This document shows, piece by piece, positions 10,496 to 17,746 of a DNA stretch of 64,000 nucleotides (its first letter is position 1; every line of letters starts with the position of its first letter). Source of the stretch: SAR324 cluster bacterium (GTDB taxonomy: Bacteria > SAR324 > NAC60-12); the NCBI GenBank assembly GCA_015231885.1, contig JADGAT010000009.1, positions 1 to 64,000 on the forward strand. Reading direction: 5' to 3'. The translations under genes and the position numbers were made by a program. A model generated the notes under the pieces. The model made no database searches and had not been told where the DNA came from. It worked only from the letters and a program-made list of their open reading frames with translations.

Positions 10496-11863
10496 TCAAA
10501 GAACCATCGGAGGGTTGGCAAATGTTTTATAGTGCAGTTTTTGCAAATGGCTGCATGCCATCAAAAATCCCACACCCGCTGTGACGAAGCCGGCCAGCAC
10601 ATAACCCAAACCATAATTCCAGTAATTACCCAGAGTCCACCAGGTTGCGGCAATGTTTGTTGCCAGAAAGAGTGCTCCCACCACAAACAGCTCCATACGG
10701 CAGTCAAAATAGGCCAGCACAATGCTGATCAAGGACATGGCCATGTGAAAAAACGCCCCCACACAGGCCAAACGAAAAATGCCCCATTGGCTCCAGTCCA
10801 AATGCAGGACCAGCATGAGCCACGGAGAAATAAATAAAATAACGGAAGTCAGGATGATCTGAAAAATCAGGATGCGGACACTGTTGAACTTCAGTTCCCG
10901 GATAAGATCATTGCGGGCATGCTCCAGGACGAGATAGGCCGCTTTGTTCTCTATTAAAAAGAAATAACGCCGCAGGTCTTCATAAAAGTCGGTTTCAATG
11001 ATCATGACAAAATAGGCCATGGAGGGAATGACGGTCAAATAGGCCACAAACATGGCACCGTCATAGGCTGGGTAAATGCGGAGAGGTCCCAGTACCGAAA
11101 TTCCTTCTCCATACCAAAACAACATTTTATCAGCCCAAATGCCCAGGCTGCCGATGGCTCCTGTCAGGTACAGAATCCAATACTTTTTGTGCGCCTGCAG
11201 CACCAGTTTGCTGGGTCTGAAGGAACCGTCAAATTCGATGGAGATGCTGCTGATCAGAATAAACACAATAAAAGTTAAGCCTAAATTCAATCCGATCAGA
11301 AAGCCGTCCAGCCCTAAATAGCGTCCTCCGACCAATGCCGCGGGAACTGCTGAAAAAAAACCGATCAAAAAAGCCCAGACAATGCGCATGTAAGCTTTCA
11401 GAGTAGAAATATAGACCATCGTCACCCACATGATGTTGGCGAGTACAAACAGGACAAACACCTGGAGGCTTGTCCAGAAAGGAAGCTGCAGAATCCACAA
11501 AACCGGAAATCCAACCAGACAGGCTAAAACCAGGGTCAGCAGCAGTGTCCCCGTAAACATTCCAGCGATTTTTGATTCTTCATGATCGTAGAGGCAGTCC
11601 GATATCTGACGCGTGATGGCCATTTGAGTCCCTCCGGTTAAAATCATGGAACCCGCAAAAGAATAAATGGCCAGTCCCATGAATTGGCTGACGATCACTT
11701 CGGAGGTAAAGACTTTGCCCTGCAGGGTGATCAGGGAAAGAGAAATCACCGAAAACAGCCAGGGGCCTGAAGTCACCAGAGCTGTATAGAAATATGCTGA
11801 TAACGTGGATTGAATGCTGTCTGATTTGATCAGTTTTTTTAAATTAAACGCGATTCCCGCCAT
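10496..11863 (-). CDS. pelG: PelG-like inner-membrane exopolysaccharide transporter
   Basis: 455 residues, a polytopic membrane protein with about a dozen hydrophobic segments. The N-terminus (MAGIAFNLKKLIKSDS) and the tract SAYFYTALVTSGPWLFSVIS are typical of PelG, a MATE/Wzx-like protein that with PelD and PelE moves the Pel polymer (partly deacetylated, GalNAc-rich) over the inner membrane. The length matches the family. Its start overlaps the 3' end of pelF by 20 nt. It is the last gene of the minus-strand pel operon. Confidence 0.93.
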   Translation of the reverse strand: MAGIAFNLKKLIKSDSIQSTLSAYFYTALVTSGPWLFSVISLSLITLQGKVFTSEVIVSQFMGLAIYSFAGSMILTGGTQMAITRQISDCLYDHEESKIAGMFTGTLLLTLVLACLVGFPVLWILQLPFWTSLQVFVLFVLANIMWVTMVYISTLKAYMRIVWAFLIGFFSAVPAALVGGRYLGLDGFLIGLNLGLTFIVFILISSISIEFDGSFRPSKLVLQAHKKYWILYLTGAIGSLGIWADKMLFWYGEGISVLGPLRIYPAYDGAMFVAYLTVIPSMAYFVMIIETDFYEDLRRYFFLIENKAAYLVLEHARNDLIRELKFNSVRILIFQIILTSVILFISPWLMLVLHLDWSQWGIFRLACVGAFFHMAMSLISIVLAYFDCRMELFVVGALFLATNIAATWWTLGNYWNYGLGYVLAGFVTAGVGFLMACSHLQKLHYKTFANPPMVL

Positions 11864-13355
11864 AACAATACTTTTCGTAGAGTGCGTGGTATTTTTGGTA
11901 GAGAATGGGGAGATCGTAGAATTGTTTCATCCGTTCTCTTCCGGCTTCCCCCAGGGTTTTTGCTTTTTCAGGAGATTTCAAAATAGACAGGATGGCCATT
12001 CCTGACTCTTCTGGGTCGGCCAGGCCTGTGACAATGCCTCCGTGTCCCAGGTGTTTGTCATCGGCCATGCCTTCGAGCAGATCACGGCAAGAACCAACGT
12101 CTGTTGCCACAACTGGAATTTCAAGGCATTGCGCTTCCAGAATTACCAAAGGCTGCCCTTCGCTGATGCTGGTCAGGACCAGCACGTCAATTTTGGGATA
12201 ATATTCCATCAGGTTGACATTTCCGGTAAATTGGATGGTGGATTCTAAATTAAAGTTTTTCACCAATTGCACACATTCTTCGTAATAATCCTCTTCTTCT
12301 TCGGTAGGTCCCATAATCCAGACTTCTACGTTTTTGATAACGTTGGCCACCACCCTGACCGCACGAATGAAGGTTTTCACATCCTTAATTGAGACGACTC
12401 GTCCGACAAACCCAATCACAGGATTTTGCTGAGGCTGGCGTGTGAGTGCACTCAGGCGGGCATAATCGACACCATTTGGGATCACCTTCAGTTTGTCCGC
12501 AGGAGCGCCATCTTCCATCTGAAGTCGCTGATTTCCTTCATACAGGGTGATGATTTCTGAGGCATGTTCATAGCAAAAGTAAGCCATTGCCTGGAATGCG
12601 TGAATCCAGATTTGTTTGAAGGTGCTCATCTGTTTTTCGGCCATGAAGCGTTCTCGGGATTTCTCAAAAATCCAGCCTGCTCTGGAAATTTCAATACGAC
12701 GTTCTTTGCTGTAAATTCCATGTTCGGTCACGATCATGGGAGAACCGGTCAGCACTTTGGCTTTGGCAGCGAGCATCCCCGCATAGCCCGTAGACACCGT
12801 GTGGTACATTCGGCAAAGGGGAATTTCCTGTTTCATCACGGAAAAAATCCCGGCATGCAGATAGCGCCAGGTCCAAAAGTAATCCAAAAAAGAAACTTCA
12901 GGGCTACGGAAATGATAGAGTTTGACCAGTAGCTCCCAGTTTTTTTTCGAATACATCATGGATGGAGGCGACCAGTTTTTTTTATTCAGACACTGTGTCA
13001 TCTCTTCAAATTCTTCGCGGGCTGCGTGGGGCGGAGGGGTTTGTTCGCTGACAAACGGCATGGCCGTATGCAGATTCCAAACGGTATTCAGATCTTTCTT
13101 GGACAAATGCTTCTTCCATAGCGGTTTTTTGAAGACGGATTTGTCCTGCAGGTACATGGTATGGATTTTCCGGATATTGGGAGGCAGTTTGAATTTCTGT
13201 TCTCGCTCCTGGCGATCCGGCAAAATAACCAGCAAACTGAAGGTAAAGTCGTCCATGCCCTCGATGATAGAGTGGACCCAGCTGCTCACACCGCCCCGTA
13301 CATAAGGGTAGGTTCCTTCTAAAATAAGACAAATGTCGGCTTCATAAGAGGACAT
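11844..13355 (-). CDS. pelF: PelF-like cytosolic glycosyltransferase
   Basis: 503 residues. The N-terminal PelF signature ADICLILEGTYPYVRGGVSS is followed by a GT4-type C-terminal domain (VIPNGVDYARL, IGFVGRVVSIKDVKTFIRA, then TSISEGQPLVILEAQC with the nucleotide-sugar-binding glutamates). PelF polymerises the Pel chain from UDP-GalNAc/GlcNAc. It lies 4 bp after pelE and overlaps pelG. No truncation is seen. Confidence 0.94.
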   Translation of the reverse strand: MSSYEADICLILEGTYPYVRGGVSSWVHSIIEGMDDFTFSLLVILPDRQEREQKFKLPPNIRKIHTMYLQDKSVFKKPLWKKHLSKKDLNTVWNLHTAMPFVSEQTPPPHAAREEFEEMTQCLNKKNWSPPSMMYSKKNWELLVKLYHFRSPEVSFLDYFWTWRYLHAGIFSVMKQEIPLCRMYHTVSTGYAGMLAAKAKVLTGSPMIVTEHGIYSKERRIEISRAGWIFEKSRERFMAEKQMSTFKQIWIHAFQAMAYFCYEHASEIITLYEGNQRLQMEDGAPADKLKVIPNGVDYARLSALTRQPQQNPVIGFVGRVVSIKDVKTFIRAVRVVANVIKNVEVWIMGPTEEEEDYYEECVQLVKNFNLESTIQFTGNVNLMEYYPKIDVLVLTSISEGQPLVILEAQCLEIPVVATDVGSCRDLLEGMADDKHLGHGGIVTGLADPEESGMAILSILKSPEKAKTLGEAGRERMKQFYDLPILYQKYHALYEKYCYGGNRV

Positions 13356-13359
13356 GATT

Positions 13360-14394
13360 TCACTTTTGCCCAGCGTTTAGCTGGGCTTCCTGATATTGAA
13401 AAACTTCTGATCCAAACGCCCAGTAATTGAAAGGTTCTGCCAGATTGTCCGGCAATTCCATAGAAAATGAGCATTTTCGGGTGAATTTTTCTAATTCCAC
13501 AAAACGCTTTCCTTTGTATAAGGCTTCTGCGTACCAACCTAAAATAGGTATGGATTCGGGATGATATTCCAGCCCTTCACGCAGCACTTCAATGGCACGG
13601 TCAATCTGTCTGCGGCGTACCAGCAGTCGGCCCAGTGCATAGCGCACCTTCTCATGATCAGGCTGAAGGGCGAGGCAGGTTTGATAACAGCCTTCTGTTT
13701 CTTTGAGAAAATATTCCATATCATCACTGGCAGGTAATTCCCAAAAGCAATACTGGTCATAGGCCGAACCCAACTGATACCAGAAATCAGCATCGTTGGA
13801 AGTGTGCCCCACTTTTTCTTTCAGCAGCTGCAGACGTTTTTGAAATAAATCATTGAGTTGTATCAAACCGCTTGCCGCATAGTAGCGCACATCGGAATCA
13901 TTATCTGATAACCCTTCACGCAACACCCTGACAGACAGTTGGCTGGGATGCTGAATCACTTTGTCAATGGCCCGTTGCTTGAGAACACGATCGGAACCTT
14001 TCATGATATCTAGAAACGGTTCTGCCTGCTGCTCATTGTCTTCTGTCCATAGATTTTCTGTCAGTTGAAAACGGACTTTGTCCATTTCGGTGACATGAAT
14101 TGCACCACTGAGCTGGTCGTGATAATGGTCCAGCTGCTTTTGCTGATGGCGAGACAAGATGAGTATGGAAATCGAGGCTCCGAAGGTCGCAAAAGGGCCA
14201 AGAAAGGGAACCAGCATCAGATAATAGCCATAAATGCGTCCCATTCCGGTTTGAGGTGCTTGAAAACGTGTGACCAGTAATCCCAAAACCAGAGGGGCAA
14301 GACAAATAAAAAATATATTCTGAGGTATGGGGAGCCAGAGGAATCCTCCTGCCTGCAAAGCTCCGCTAAAAAAAAGAAGAACCAGGTAACGCAT
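13360..14394 (-). CDS. pelE: PelE-like membrane protein with helical repeats
   Basis: 344 residues. Two or three hydrophobic segments lie in the first 85 residues (LVLLFFSGALQAGGFLWL and LVPFLGPFATFGASISILIL), followed by a soluble helical-repeat region: HEAT-like about 115-185, TPR-like about 200-310 (YQTCLALQPDHEKVRYALG, VLREGLEYHPES). PelE forms the inner-membrane synthase complex with PelD, PelF and PelG. Its start shares one base with the stop of pelD. Confidence 0.88.
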   Translation of the reverse strand: MRYLVLLFFSGALQAGGFLWLPIPQNIFFICLAPLVLGLLVTRFQAPQTGMGRIYGYYLMLVPFLGPFATFGASISILILSRHQQKQLDHYHDQLSGAIHVTEMDKVRFQLTENLWTEDNEQQAEPFLDIMKGSDRVLKQRAIDKVIQHPSQLSVRVLREGLSDNDSDVRYYAASGLIQLNDLFQKRLQLLKEKVGHTSNDADFWYQLGSAYDQYCFWELPASDDMEYFLKETEGCYQTCLALQPDHEKVRYALGRLLVRRRQIDRAIEVLREGLEYHPESIPILGWYAEALYKGKRFVELEKFTRKCSFSMELPDNLAEPFNYWAFGSEVFQYQEAQLNAGQK

Positions 14395-15833
14395 TAATTT
14401 TCACTCAAAAGACGTGCTATCATTTCATCAGTACGATCATGTGCATCCTCTGGGATGATGTCCAAAACAACGGGATGAACAAACAGAGATTGATCCCCTG
14501 TAGAAGCAACCTCCCACGTGAGCAGCAGCAAGTCATCTTCATTTTTGAAGGGTTTGAATTCATAACCGACTATTTCTTTGGTACATCGTTCTATTCCCAT
14601 TTCGACACCTTCCATACTGGTGAAGGGGAGAATCAAACAGAATTGATACTTCTCATCATCTCCTCGAGTGATGATGTCATCCCCGCGTACTTGAAACTCG
14701 ATCACTCGATAGATAATGCGAAGCACCGTGTTTTGTGTCTCCTTGTCCATCAGATCAAAATTCATCACAGAAACAAACAGGACCGATAAATCCAGGTTGT
14801 ATCGTCTGGCCAGACGAATTTCCCGCTGCAGACGTTCTTTGAAATAAAAAAATGTATAGGCACCCGTCTCCTCATCATGAACCTGTGCTTTTTTACTCGC
14901 CCCAAACGATTGAGCATTTTCAAGTGCTTTGATGGTCCAGTCACTCAACATTTGGATGATTTGAAAAGAGGCGGGGTGCAGATTCATGAAAGAGATTTGT
15001 TCAATCTTCAAAATGCCATAGACTTGCTGTTCCTGGGTGATCAACGGTGCTGTGATGATGGAGTCATCAACTCCTTCCAGTTCTCGTTCTGAAAGGATGC
15101 GTTTTTTTTGCTGTACCAGCTTGTAAAGCGGGTGATTTTGGTCATACACGCGAGGATACTGTTCATCATTGTCCCAGTTTTTCTGAGATGCCAGAACCAA
15201 TTGATGATTTTCGTGAATATAAATGGAGCAGGACTCGGCATGCAGATAATCTGTCAATAAACTTGGAATATGTTCAAAAATTTCTTTTACTTCCAAGCTT
15301 CCCAGTTTTTGAGCAGACTCATATAAGGTCAACACCGTATCTTCGCGGGAAACCGCTTTTTTTTCCAATGCCAGGTTGGCTTCAATCAATCGCTGGCGAT
15401 CTCCTTCCATATCGGTAACTCGATTTGTTAAGTCATCTACCGTGGTTTGCGCTTCTGCCAGGCTGGACTGATCTCGATTAAAAAATATTCCAACCAGAAT
15501 TCCCTCCAGTAAAAATAAAAAGGGGGGGGACAATTCGGATGCCAGCTGGATGGCATACAAGTCATGAATCCCCCTCCAGTTGATGGTCACTAATCCTGCT
15601 ATGGAGGCCGTCAACACGGAAATCGAAAATCCATAAACATAACCAAACCCTAAAATTCCAAGCCAGTAGAGATGATCCTTAAATGGAGCGAGACTGAGCT
15701 GGACGGTTTGCAGGTAGAGTTCAAATCCTTCGATAAATAGAAAAAATAAAGGAATCTCCAAAATAAGAACCCTCATTTTGGAAAAATTTTGCCACAGTTT
15801 ATTCATTGATTTTACTGTTAAGTGCCGGGTCAA
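14394..15833 (-). CDS. pelD: PelD-like c-di-GMP receptor (TM, GAF, degenerate GGDEF)
   Basis: 479 residues. Four TM segments lie in about 22-118, then a coiled coil to about 165, a GAF domain about 170-305 and a degenerate GGDEF domain about 320-450. The inhibitory-type site RxxD is kept as R383-G-D-D386, while the position of GGDEF reads GDDEKY, so the domain should bind c-di-GMP without making it. Arg416 sits at about the distance expected for the second c-di-GMP-contacting arginine of PelD; that is an inference. Binding would activate Pel synthesis post-translationally. The operon continues into pelE with a 1-nt overlap. Confidence 0.92.
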   Translation of the reverse strand: MTRHLTVKSMNKLWQNFSKMRVLILEIPLFFLFIEGFELYLQTVQLSLAPFKDHLYWLGILGFGYVYGFSISVLTASIAGLVTINWRGIHDLYAIQLASELSPPFLFLLEGILVGIFFNRDQSSLAEAQTTVDDLTNRVTDMEGDRQRLIEANLALEKKAVSREDTVLTLYESAQKLGSLEVKEIFEHIPSLLTDYLHAESCSIYIHENHQLVLASQKNWDNDEQYPRVYDQNHPLYKLVQQKKRILSERELEGVDDSIITAPLITQEQQVYGILKIEQISFMNLHPASFQIIQMLSDWTIKALENAQSFGASKKAQVHDEETGAYTFFYFKERLQREIRLARRYNLDLSVLFVSVMNFDLMDKETQNTVLRIIYRVIEFQVRGDDIITRGDDEKYQFCLILPFTSMEGVEMGIERCTKEIVGYEFKPFKNEDDLLLLTWEVASTGDQSLFVHPVVLDIIPEDAHDRTDEMIARLLSEN

Positions 15834-15878: not shown

Positions 15879-16886
15879 CTATTGACCAGGAGTATGCCCT
15901 GGTGGGAAGGTGAATTGGCTCAATTCCCTGCTATTGACGTAAGGGATGTAACGTGCCTCCTGTGCCAGCTCGTAAAACTTTTCAATCTTATCAGGATCGG
16001 TCAAATAGTCGATTGCCAAAATGAATTTTTCATCTGCCTGGTAGTCTTTCACCACATCAATCACCAGCTGTTGAGGTGCCAGGTCATTATTGATTTCTTT
16101 TTCTCCAAAAAAGAACGTGTCTTCCAACCCCAGACCGTCAATGGCCGCTAAATAATCAGCACGATGCTGGGGAGAGGCTGAGCGGATAATGAAGGTTCCA
16201 TTTTGAGGTACGACCAGAAAGTTGGTTTGTTGACGCTGCTGACGGGCGTATTGAGTCAACTTGAGAACCAATTCAACCATCCGGTTGGCAGTTACTTCTT
16301 CACTCTCAAGTTCAGGCCCTTCTCCATCAGGGCCAAAATAGTAAAAAGCATCAATGATATCAAGATAGATTCCATCAAATCCAGCATCAATGATACGGTC
16401 CAAGTAACTTTTTTGAATTCCTTCCCGGACACCATACAAAACCGAATGCCATTCGGGCATCCAGTAGCGCACTTTGAAATTATCCGGCCATTTCGGATTG
16501 GCAGCAGCCAAAAAAGCAGGGGCATTTTCATTCGGTTGTCCGTCAGTGATCCAGGAATCCTGCCAATAAAACCGAACTTGCTCTGCTTCGCCAACACTCA
16601 AATAACTCAAAATGACTTTGGAAGACTCTGAACCAGTGCCCTGCCGGATTTGTTGAATTTCTGATGGTGTGATTTCTTTAGCGGCGGTACCGTCATGAGA
16701 ATAATCCATCACAATCAGCTCAACCTGAGATTCTGCCATGAGTTCGATATCATACGAATCGGCGGCTTGCAGCTGATAAGCCCAGCTTTGAAATTTTGGT
16801 TCCCATGATGATGCTTCTTCAGGAACCGTCACACAGGAGATTAACACCAGCCCCATGACAAGGCCGCAAATCAAATCAATCCTCAT
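15879..16886 (-). CDS. GH114 (endo-alpha-1,4-polygalactosaminidase-like) lipoprotein; free-standing PelA hydrolase half
   Basis: 335 residues. Signal peptide with lipobox LISC (Cys18). The rest is a GH114 TIM-barrel: VILSYLSVGEAEQVRFYW (about 91-108), VRYWMPEW (139-146), then GFDGIYLDIIDAFYYF (169-184). In Pseudomonas PelA this fold is the N-terminal glycoside hydrolase domain of a protein that also carries the deacetylase. Here it is a separate lipid-anchored protein that ends cleanly. It overlaps the SUMF1-fold gene by 4 nt and precedes pelD by 45 bp, so it is part of the pel operon. Confidence 0.88.
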   Translation of the reverse strand: MRIDLICGLVMGLVLISCVTVPEEASSWEPKFQSWAYQLQAADSYDIELMAESQVELIVMDYSHDGTAAKEITPSEIQQIRQGTGSESSKVILSYLSVGEAEQVRFYWQDSWITDGQPNENAPAFLAAANPKWPDNFKVRYWMPEWHSVLYGVREGIQKSYLDRIIDAGFDGIYLDIIDAFYYFGPDGEGPELESEEVTANRMVELVLKLTQYARQQRQQTNFLVVPQNGTFIIRSASPQHRADYLAAIDGLGLEDTFFFGEKEINNDLAPQQLVIDVVKDYQADEKFILAIDYLTDPDKIEKFYELAQEARYIPYVNSRELSQFTFPPGHTPGQ

Positions 16887-17746
16887 CTGTTCCTTTCTTT
16901 TTTAGAATAAGACAATGCACAGCGAAATCCCACATCATTGACTGAATACAGGGGTTTTGCATAATCACGGCTGGTGACACTCAAGCGATTGGGACCATCG
17001 TTCCAGCCTCCTCCGCGAATCACCTTACCCGTCCCGGATGCAGGGCCAGGAGGATTTTGTTTTGGAGAAATATTGTAATAATCTGCCGAGTACCAGTCCT
17101 GAACCCATTCCCACACATTTCCCTGTAAATGATAAATCCCCCAGATATTAGGAGCCTTGCTTTTGACAGGATGAGGAGACTGGAGAGAATTGAAATAAAA
17201 CCAGGCAGACCTCTGCAATGATTTTAAAGATTTACTGCGATTGTGGGAGCTGCCCGCACGAGCGGCTCTCTCCCACTCAGCTTCAGTGGGAAGACGCTTG
17301 TTCAAAAATTTGCAGTACGCTTCTGCGGCAAACCATGATACATAGATGACAGGGAATGCCTTTCCCGCAAAATCGGGCCGATTTTCGGGGTTCCAGTGCC
17401 GCAGATAGTTTTGATCGGCTTTTCCTGCTTTTCCACGGGCATTGACAATATTCCATTGAGGAGATGCCTGCACGAATTTTTGAAAATCCCCATTGGACAC
17501 TTCATGGATATCAAAGTAATAGGCATTCAAAAAAACGGAGTGCACTGGAGATTCCGGCATGGGTTTGAACTGTTTTAAAAAATAGGGACTTTTTTCTTTT
17601 GTTAGAGAGGCTGATTGTGATAAATGTCCCATCTGGAACTTTCCTGCCGGAATGAGTACCATATTTTCTAATGCCTGACCATTAAGACGGTCTGCACCTA
17701 CTGACATGACAAGAATAAAGCTGTAAATAACGATTAGGGTTTTCAT
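16883..17746 (-). CDS. Secreted SUMF1/formylglycine-generating-enzyme-fold protein lacking the catalytic cysteine pair
   Basis: 287 residues with an N-terminal signal segment (LIVIYSFILVMSVGA). The SUMF1 fold is clear: MVLIPAGKFQMG, PVIYVSWFAAEAYCKFLN, RLPTEAEWERAARAG, LQGNVWEWVQDW and a final GGGWNDGPNR...VGFRCA. By alignment from memory, the two active-site cysteines of true formylglycine-generating enzymes fall on non-cysteine residues in the GPNRLSVTSR stretch. It is therefore unlikely to activate sulfatases and may be a binding or scaffold protein. It is the first gene of the minus-strand pel operon, 26 bp from the divergent PelA-like gene. SUMF1 proteins are not part of the described pel gene sets known to me. 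Confidence 0.85.
   Translation of the reverse strand: MKTLIVIYSFILVMSVGADRLNGQALENMVLIPAGKFQMGHLSQSASLTKEKSPYFLKQFKPMPESPVHSVFLNAYYFDIHEVSNGDFQKFVQASPQWNIVNARGKAGKADQNYLRHWNPENRPDFAGKAFPVIYVSWFAAEAYCKFLNKRLPTEAEWERAARAGSSHNRSKSLKSLQRSAWFYFNSLQSPHPVKSKAPNIWGIYHLQGNVWEWVQDWYSADYYNISPKQNPPGPASGTGKVIRGGGWNDGPNRLSVTSRDYAKPLYSVNDVGFRCALSYSKKERNR

Follow-up and report, generated by a model that had tools for sequence, protein, structure and literature searches.

A SUMF1-fold gene paired with a PelA-type deacetylase gene in the pel loci of one SAR324 lineage

The window analysed here, a stretch of 64,000 nucleotides from a SAR324 cluster bacterium (genome G000, contig C241), contains a Pel exopolysaccharide biosynthesis cluster, recognized by pelF and pelG together with pelD and pelE (Table 1). 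A gene encoding a protein with the SUMF1 fold, the fold of formylglycine-generating enzymes (FGEs), is the first of a minus-strand run with the order SUMF1–GH114–pelD–pelE–pelF–pelG, and its stop is overlapped by the GH114 start by 4 bp. The ORF spans exactly the positions reported in an earlier note on this DNA, which did not give the strand, and the PelF, PelG, PelD-like, PelE-like and GH114 genes found around it bear out the Pel operon described there. Elsewhere in the genome, on another contig, lies a PelB-like TPR gene followed by a gene for 331 aa.

The deacetylase and SUMF1 genes stand head to head, with 26 bp between their start codons. The 619-aa deacetylase has no Pfam or NCBIfam match, and its HIDGDG, HTYTH and YYHFY motifs have aligned counterparts in PelA, the founding member of CE21, where they correspond to the catalytic base, the metal triad and the catalytic acid, respectively (PMC12022489, available portion). 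This similarity, with base, triad and acid aligned, places the protein among the PelA deacetylases (CE21). Inspection of the N termini suggested a lipoprotein-like signal for the GH114 protein and ordinary signal-like segments for the deacetylase and the SUMF1 protein. The latter is probably secreted, which would put it in the periplasm.

Table 1 Features of the pel locus and of related loci discussed in the text
Feature	Coordinates	Strand	Basis and remarks
SUMF1/FGE-fold protein gene	16883..17746	minus	287 aa; N-terminal hydrophobic signal-like segment, no evident lipobox (inspection)
Stand-alone PelA mixed alpha/beta + CE21 deacetylase (+ beta-rich) protein, 619 aa	17773..19632	plus	phmmer to PelA 9cgy 1.3e-71, residues 234-607
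GH114-family glycoside hydrolase (PelA hydrolase counterpart), TM1410-like	15879..16886	minus	PF03537 1.4e-17; TIGR01370 7.7e-64, over cut-off; TM1410 4.8e-42
PelD-like GAF + degenerate GGDEF protein	14394..15833	minus	Pfam; place in cluster
PelE-like HEAT/TPR protein	13360..14394	minus	Pfam; place in cluster
PelF glycosyltransferase	11844..13355	minus	NF038011 2.2e-146, over cut-off
PelG exporter	10496..11863	minus	PF16933 4.9e-111
Stretch GKVIRGGGWNDGPNR in place of the FGE C-x4-C loop	16985..17032	minus	Codons 239-254, alignment; coordinates calculated from ORF end
Insert-like loop PQWNIVNARGKAGKADQNYLRHW	17393..17461	minus	Codons 96-118; 10 of 25 clade-specific invariant positions
PelB-like pair, locus L138	2791-8115 and 1724-2896	minus	
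PelB-like pair, locus L256	1848-5270 and 856-1851	minus	

The SUMF1 protein matches a single Pfam family, PF03781, over residues 27–277 (1.9e-51; 175.6 bits against a cut-off of 23.3). An AlphaFold2 model computed from a 32-row alignment (mean pLDDT 78.3, pTM 0.81), weak at residues 45–52 and 105–112 and with pLDDT below 50 at 105–112, aligned best with FGE 6muj (Z 27.5, rmsd 2.5, 241 residues), so that the fold assigned in the earlier note is confirmed both by family search and by structure. Lower scores were obtained for Treponema variable protein 1 (Z 24.9), PorK 9mzu and PvdO 5hha (24.5 each), EgtB 4x8b (21.2) and Major Tropism Determinant (13.7). Among solved relatives by sequence, FGEs also came first (6muj, 2.4e-29), followed by Treponema variable protein, CalU17, SUMF2, PorK, PvdO, EgtB and others, and general scaffold motifs, among them RLPTEAEWE and GNVWEW, are shared with FGE. 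All eight NCBIfam models that the protein matched scored far below their cut-offs, including those for EgtB (85.4 bits against 360), OvoA (37.8 against 400), SenA (76.1 against 420), PvdO (NF051459, 52 against 500) and GldK (TIGR03525, 83.6 against 350).

In contrast to FGE, the window protein lacks the catalytic, copper-binding C-x4-C pair together with three residues of the loop that carries it. In the phmmer alignment to 6muj, the FGE loop GGSYLCHDSYCNR is set against GGGW..NDG.PNR, with the first catalytic cysteine falling on a gap, the second opposite a proline and no cysteine anywhere in the shorter loop. The earlier note was thus right that both positions are non-cysteine, although its description of the cysteines as replaced fits only in part, as the loop has been shortened by three residues rather than altered by point substitution. 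On sequence, FGE activity is excluded. The only cysteines in the protein, C145 and C276, are invariant across its five orthologs (see below), and 66% and 52% of 29 outgroup rows, respectively, also have cysteine at these positions. The same note held that a conserved cysteine pair would speak against its reading; such a pair exists in C145 and C276, but not at the catalytic positions, as their aligned counterparts in human FGE are the cysteines of AYC and GFRC, which we take to form a structural disulfide and not the catalytic pair.

Absence of the catalytic pair turned out to be ordinary. Across all distinct SUMF1 loops sampled, cut out with a profile made from relatives, C-x4-C was present in 2 of 131. 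It was present in none of the 35 distinct loops from a family-search subset of 37 loci, which scored better than the rest of the 96 places where PF03781 matched in nine SAR324 genomes. Both samples are biased, most loci overall having been chosen by similarity to the window protein. One of the two positive loops, L039, is short and its match looks coincidental; an earlier count by strict pattern matching (1 of 110 loops) was superseded by the profile alignment. None of the ten PF03781 proteins in the window's own genome has the motif. We therefore rejected the missing cysteines as a special trait of this protein, since they are absent from most sampled loops. Nor does their loss show a non-enzymatic role, as the earlier note had concluded, because the pair is missing in most sampled relatives and because the FGE-fold proteins that are not FGEs include enzymes (EgtB, OvoA, SenA and PvdO, by their NCBIfam names).

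A search of the whole genome for the sulfatase family PF00884 returned three matches, none of them on the window's contig, in agreement with the earlier statement that no sulfatase gene is seen; a nearby substrate is in any case no strict requirement for an FGE. This genome (92.6% complete) has three PF00884 matches yet no FGE cysteine pair in its ten PF03781 loops, an observation that stands apart from the pel locus.

We then considered how the SUMF1 gene is distributed. PelF scored over its cut-off at 10 places in 9 of 52 genomes of the phylum, and the deacetylase query matched in the same nine. Orthologs of the SUMF1 protein were found in five of the 52 (G000, G028, G029, G030 and G031), all of them among the nine Pel-positive genomes, with matches of 51–100% identity over nearly the full length and 47–76% identity in the ortholog alignment. 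Its closest named relatives are from SAR324 cluster MAGs (L011, 75%; L012, 61%), each of which was counted once with its counterpart (G028:C532 and G030:C19, respectively); the next relatives, from other phyla, are at 31–38%.

In all five genomes the SUMF1 ortholog adjoins the deacetylase gene, despite rearrangement elsewhere in the cluster. GH114 follows SUMF1 in G000 and in G028, where the contig then ends. In G031 (L140) the relative orientation of the pair differs and pelDEFG–GH114 lies next door. In G030 (L138, L139) the 489-kb contig that carries the pair is distinct from the 235-kb contig that carries pelDEFG and a GH114-like gene. In G029 (L141) the deacetylase gene stands at the head of pelDEFG, and the 20 kb around the pair yielded no GH114 gene. 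The constant element across the five genomes is SUMF1 plus deacetylase. Of the suggestion in the earlier note that the protein binds the PelA halves, linkage thus favours the deacetylase half, in five out of five genomes, and joint binding of both halves is disfavoured by the G029 locus. In G031 only, a sulfotransferase-family gene directly follows the pair (L140, 13529-14647, plus strand; PF13469, 9.8e-16).

A split PelB-like pair, consisting of a TPR protein of 1140–1774 aa and then a gene for 331–390 aa, recurs in the five genomes with the ortholog; in G030 and G031 the TPR gene and the following gene (365–390 aa) lie within about 8 kb of the SUMF1–deacetylase pair. The second gene may encode the outer-membrane barrel that goes with the TPR protein.

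A further five pel clusters of SAR324 (those of G044, G047, G050 and G051, and the second one of G029) showed no SUMF1 gene in the stretches examined, which indicates that SUMF1 is dispensable for Pel in general. The G047 deacetylase is the nearest (43%) among these SUMF1-less clusters and has no SUMF1 in its locus. The second, pel-like cluster of G029 (L142, G029:C2:117001-137000) is diverged, with a PelF that is 41% identical and a 796-aa deacetylase-like ORF. We also considered that SUMF1 might stand in for the detached hydrolase domain of PelA, which is disfavoured by two loci (L147 and L148) with split GH114-like and deacetylase genes and no SUMF1.

A tree of 94 rows groups the five pel-linked SUMF1 proteins in one clade (100/99) with a single origin (one change). 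The next clade (100/96) consists of SUMF1 proteins from the same bacterial family with a longer N-terminal part (ORFs at least 477 long), and this neighbouring SAR324 clade suggests that the pel-linked gene probably arose from a paralog inside SAR324. The neighbourhoods of this sister clade (L004, L164, L183) in G000 and G018 include a lipid-A Kdo-transferase-like gene and yielded no functional clue. Residues invariant in the five orthologs and rare in the 29 outgroup rows, which we term clade-specific, are concentrated in the loop at residues 96–118 (W98, A103, R104, G108, A110, D111, N113, Y114, L115 and H117, and also P96). Positions 96–117 are gapped in 0–86% of outgroup rows, depending on the position. 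The loop is a candidate contact surface.

Outside SAR324, the deacetylase query had no match at 1e-15 in any of the 21 tested genomes of distant SUMF1 relatives (the 31–42% identity class), although the same query did match in the SAR324 and Pseudomonadota searches. It matched in 31 of 398 genomes of Pseudomonadota (the phylum of G056, locus L030). In 35 PelA loci that cover all 31 of these genomes, several of which end at contig ends (the shortest being 3.2 kb), a SUMF1-domain ORF was present in one. This locus (L251, G082:C18:164001-183900) has a 696-aa ORF (13448-15535, plus strand) that carries PF03781 at its C terminus and shares 28% identity with the window protein, from which it differs in length and class. 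It is divergent from and beside the GH114 gene of the local pel-type cluster; the cluster has two deacetylase-like ORFs in tandem, with one ORF between the SUMF1 ORF and a deacetylase-like ORF. The genome contains nine matches to the 696-aa protein, and SUMF1 was not found in three PelA loci (L245, L247 and L252) of two other genomes from the same family. On account of the copy number and the lack of a repeat, we do not count this locus as a second, independent association, as which it first appeared; it is probably due to chance. Close pairing of SUMF1 and deacetylase is known here from one SAR324 lineage.

An additional SUMF1 gene, constantly paired with that of the deacetylase, sets the cluster apart from the Pel systems of Pseudomonas and of Gram-positive bacteria. 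The cluster otherwise resembles that of Pseudomonas (pelABCDEFG) in having pelD, pelE, pelF and pelG and a CE21 deacetylase similar to PelA 9cgy, and it resembles the Gram-positive pelDEA(DA)FG arrangement in its stand-alone deacetylase and separate hydrolase, which are also encoded by separate genes in pel loci of bacilli (PMC7112168, in the portion available). Here the GH114/deacetylase split occurs in a SAR324 bacterium. We found no report of a SUMF1 protein in a pel locus among the open-licence papers listed in our searches, and neither 'formylglycine' nor 'sulfatase' occurs in the available portions of PMC7112194 and PMC7112168.

A precedent for the fold comes from type IX secretion, in which PorK/GldK, like the window protein, has an FGE-like fold without the cysteine pair; PorK/GldK is exported, as is predicted for the window protein. 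In PorK, the groove has been reused for docking PorN and the protein serves as a docking hub (PMC12421860, available portion). The window protein differs from PorK/GldK in its 287-aa length and in having no large InsH-like insertion and no lipobox that we could see, and the GldK model remains under its cut-off.

Taken together with gene linkage and with the Pseudomonas precedent, in which a partner, PelB, increases deacetylation by PelA (PMC12022489, available portion), the PorK example leads us to favour a role for the SUMF1 protein as a periplasmic partner of the deacetylase that is confined to this lineage and acts as a docking subunit resembling PorK, a reading to which we assign a probability of roughly 0.5. 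An FGE-fold protein without FGE chemistry, derived from a SAR324 SUMF1 paralog, would have been recruited to a SAR324-specific form of Pel. It would dock onto the stand-alone deacetylase, with its mixed alpha/beta and CE21 parts, through the old substrate groove and the clade-specific 96–118 loop, and would position or stabilize the deacetylase on the passing polymer. Both the physical contact and an effect on deacetylation are inferred from linkage and precedents. Counting against such a partner are the PelB-like gene in all five genomes, which leaves no vacant role evident, and the common ancestry of the five genomes, which amounts to few independent events. In a stricter version, which we consider rather unlikely, the SUMF1 protein of this lineage would form a heterodimer with the CE21 PelA deacetylase and be indispensable to it for activation or positioning, taking the part that the fused hydrolase domain or the PelB TPR domain plays in Pseudomonas.

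Other roles have to be weighed against a docking partner. The protein could be lectin-like, tethering or guiding GalN/GalNAc chains near the deacetylase, in keeping with the ligand-binding variable proteins of this fold (Treponema variable protein 1 and Major Tropism Determinant) and with the aromatic residues W98, Y114, F183 and Y184 among the clade-specific invariants. We consider this unlikely, as conserved aromatics are common in the FGE/C-type-lectin-like fold and the linkage is to the deacetylase, not to pelDEFG or GH114. Comparably unlikely is a different, non-FGE activity in the old groove, perhaps one that adds or alters a substituent on the polymer or on a Pel protein. Several enzyme families share the fold (the EgtB, PvdO and SenA lineages), and all five orthologs share N113, H117, H206, D250, R254 and D271; however, the corresponding NCBIfam models score far under their cut-offs, and with PF03781 filling residues 27–277 of 287 an additional N-terminal, DinB-like domain such as that of EgtB, OvoA and SenA would not fit into the protein.

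That the gene is a neighbour without Pel function, retained through common ancestry and a shared divergent promoter region, would fit the restriction to five related genomes, the abundance of SUMF1 genes (96 places in the nine genomes) and the unrelated, seemingly chance SUMF1 gene beside the pel genes of L251. At 47–76% identity, however, the pairing persists where pelDEFG lies elsewhere, where no GH114 gene is near and where the relative orientation differs, which makes mere proximity very improbable. Scarcely credible is a working FGE for an unseen sulfatase: FGE is the best structural match and the genome does encode three PF00884 proteins, but neither catalytic cysteine is present, which for the known copper mechanism refutes this role by sequence, and the protein is predicted to be exported with Pel proteins from a contig that has no sulfatase-family match.

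The lost-cysteine observation is correct but ordinary; what deserves attention is the constant pairing with the PelA deacetylase. Proteins of the PF03781 family that lack the FGE cysteines abound, and most have no assigned role, whereas here there is a clear genetic partner. As this partner belongs to a well-studied exopolysaccharide system, the role is open to experiment with two purified proteins and the Pel assays already available. If the docking reading is true, a polysaccharide-modifying complex would join the short list of repurposed uses of the FGE fold.
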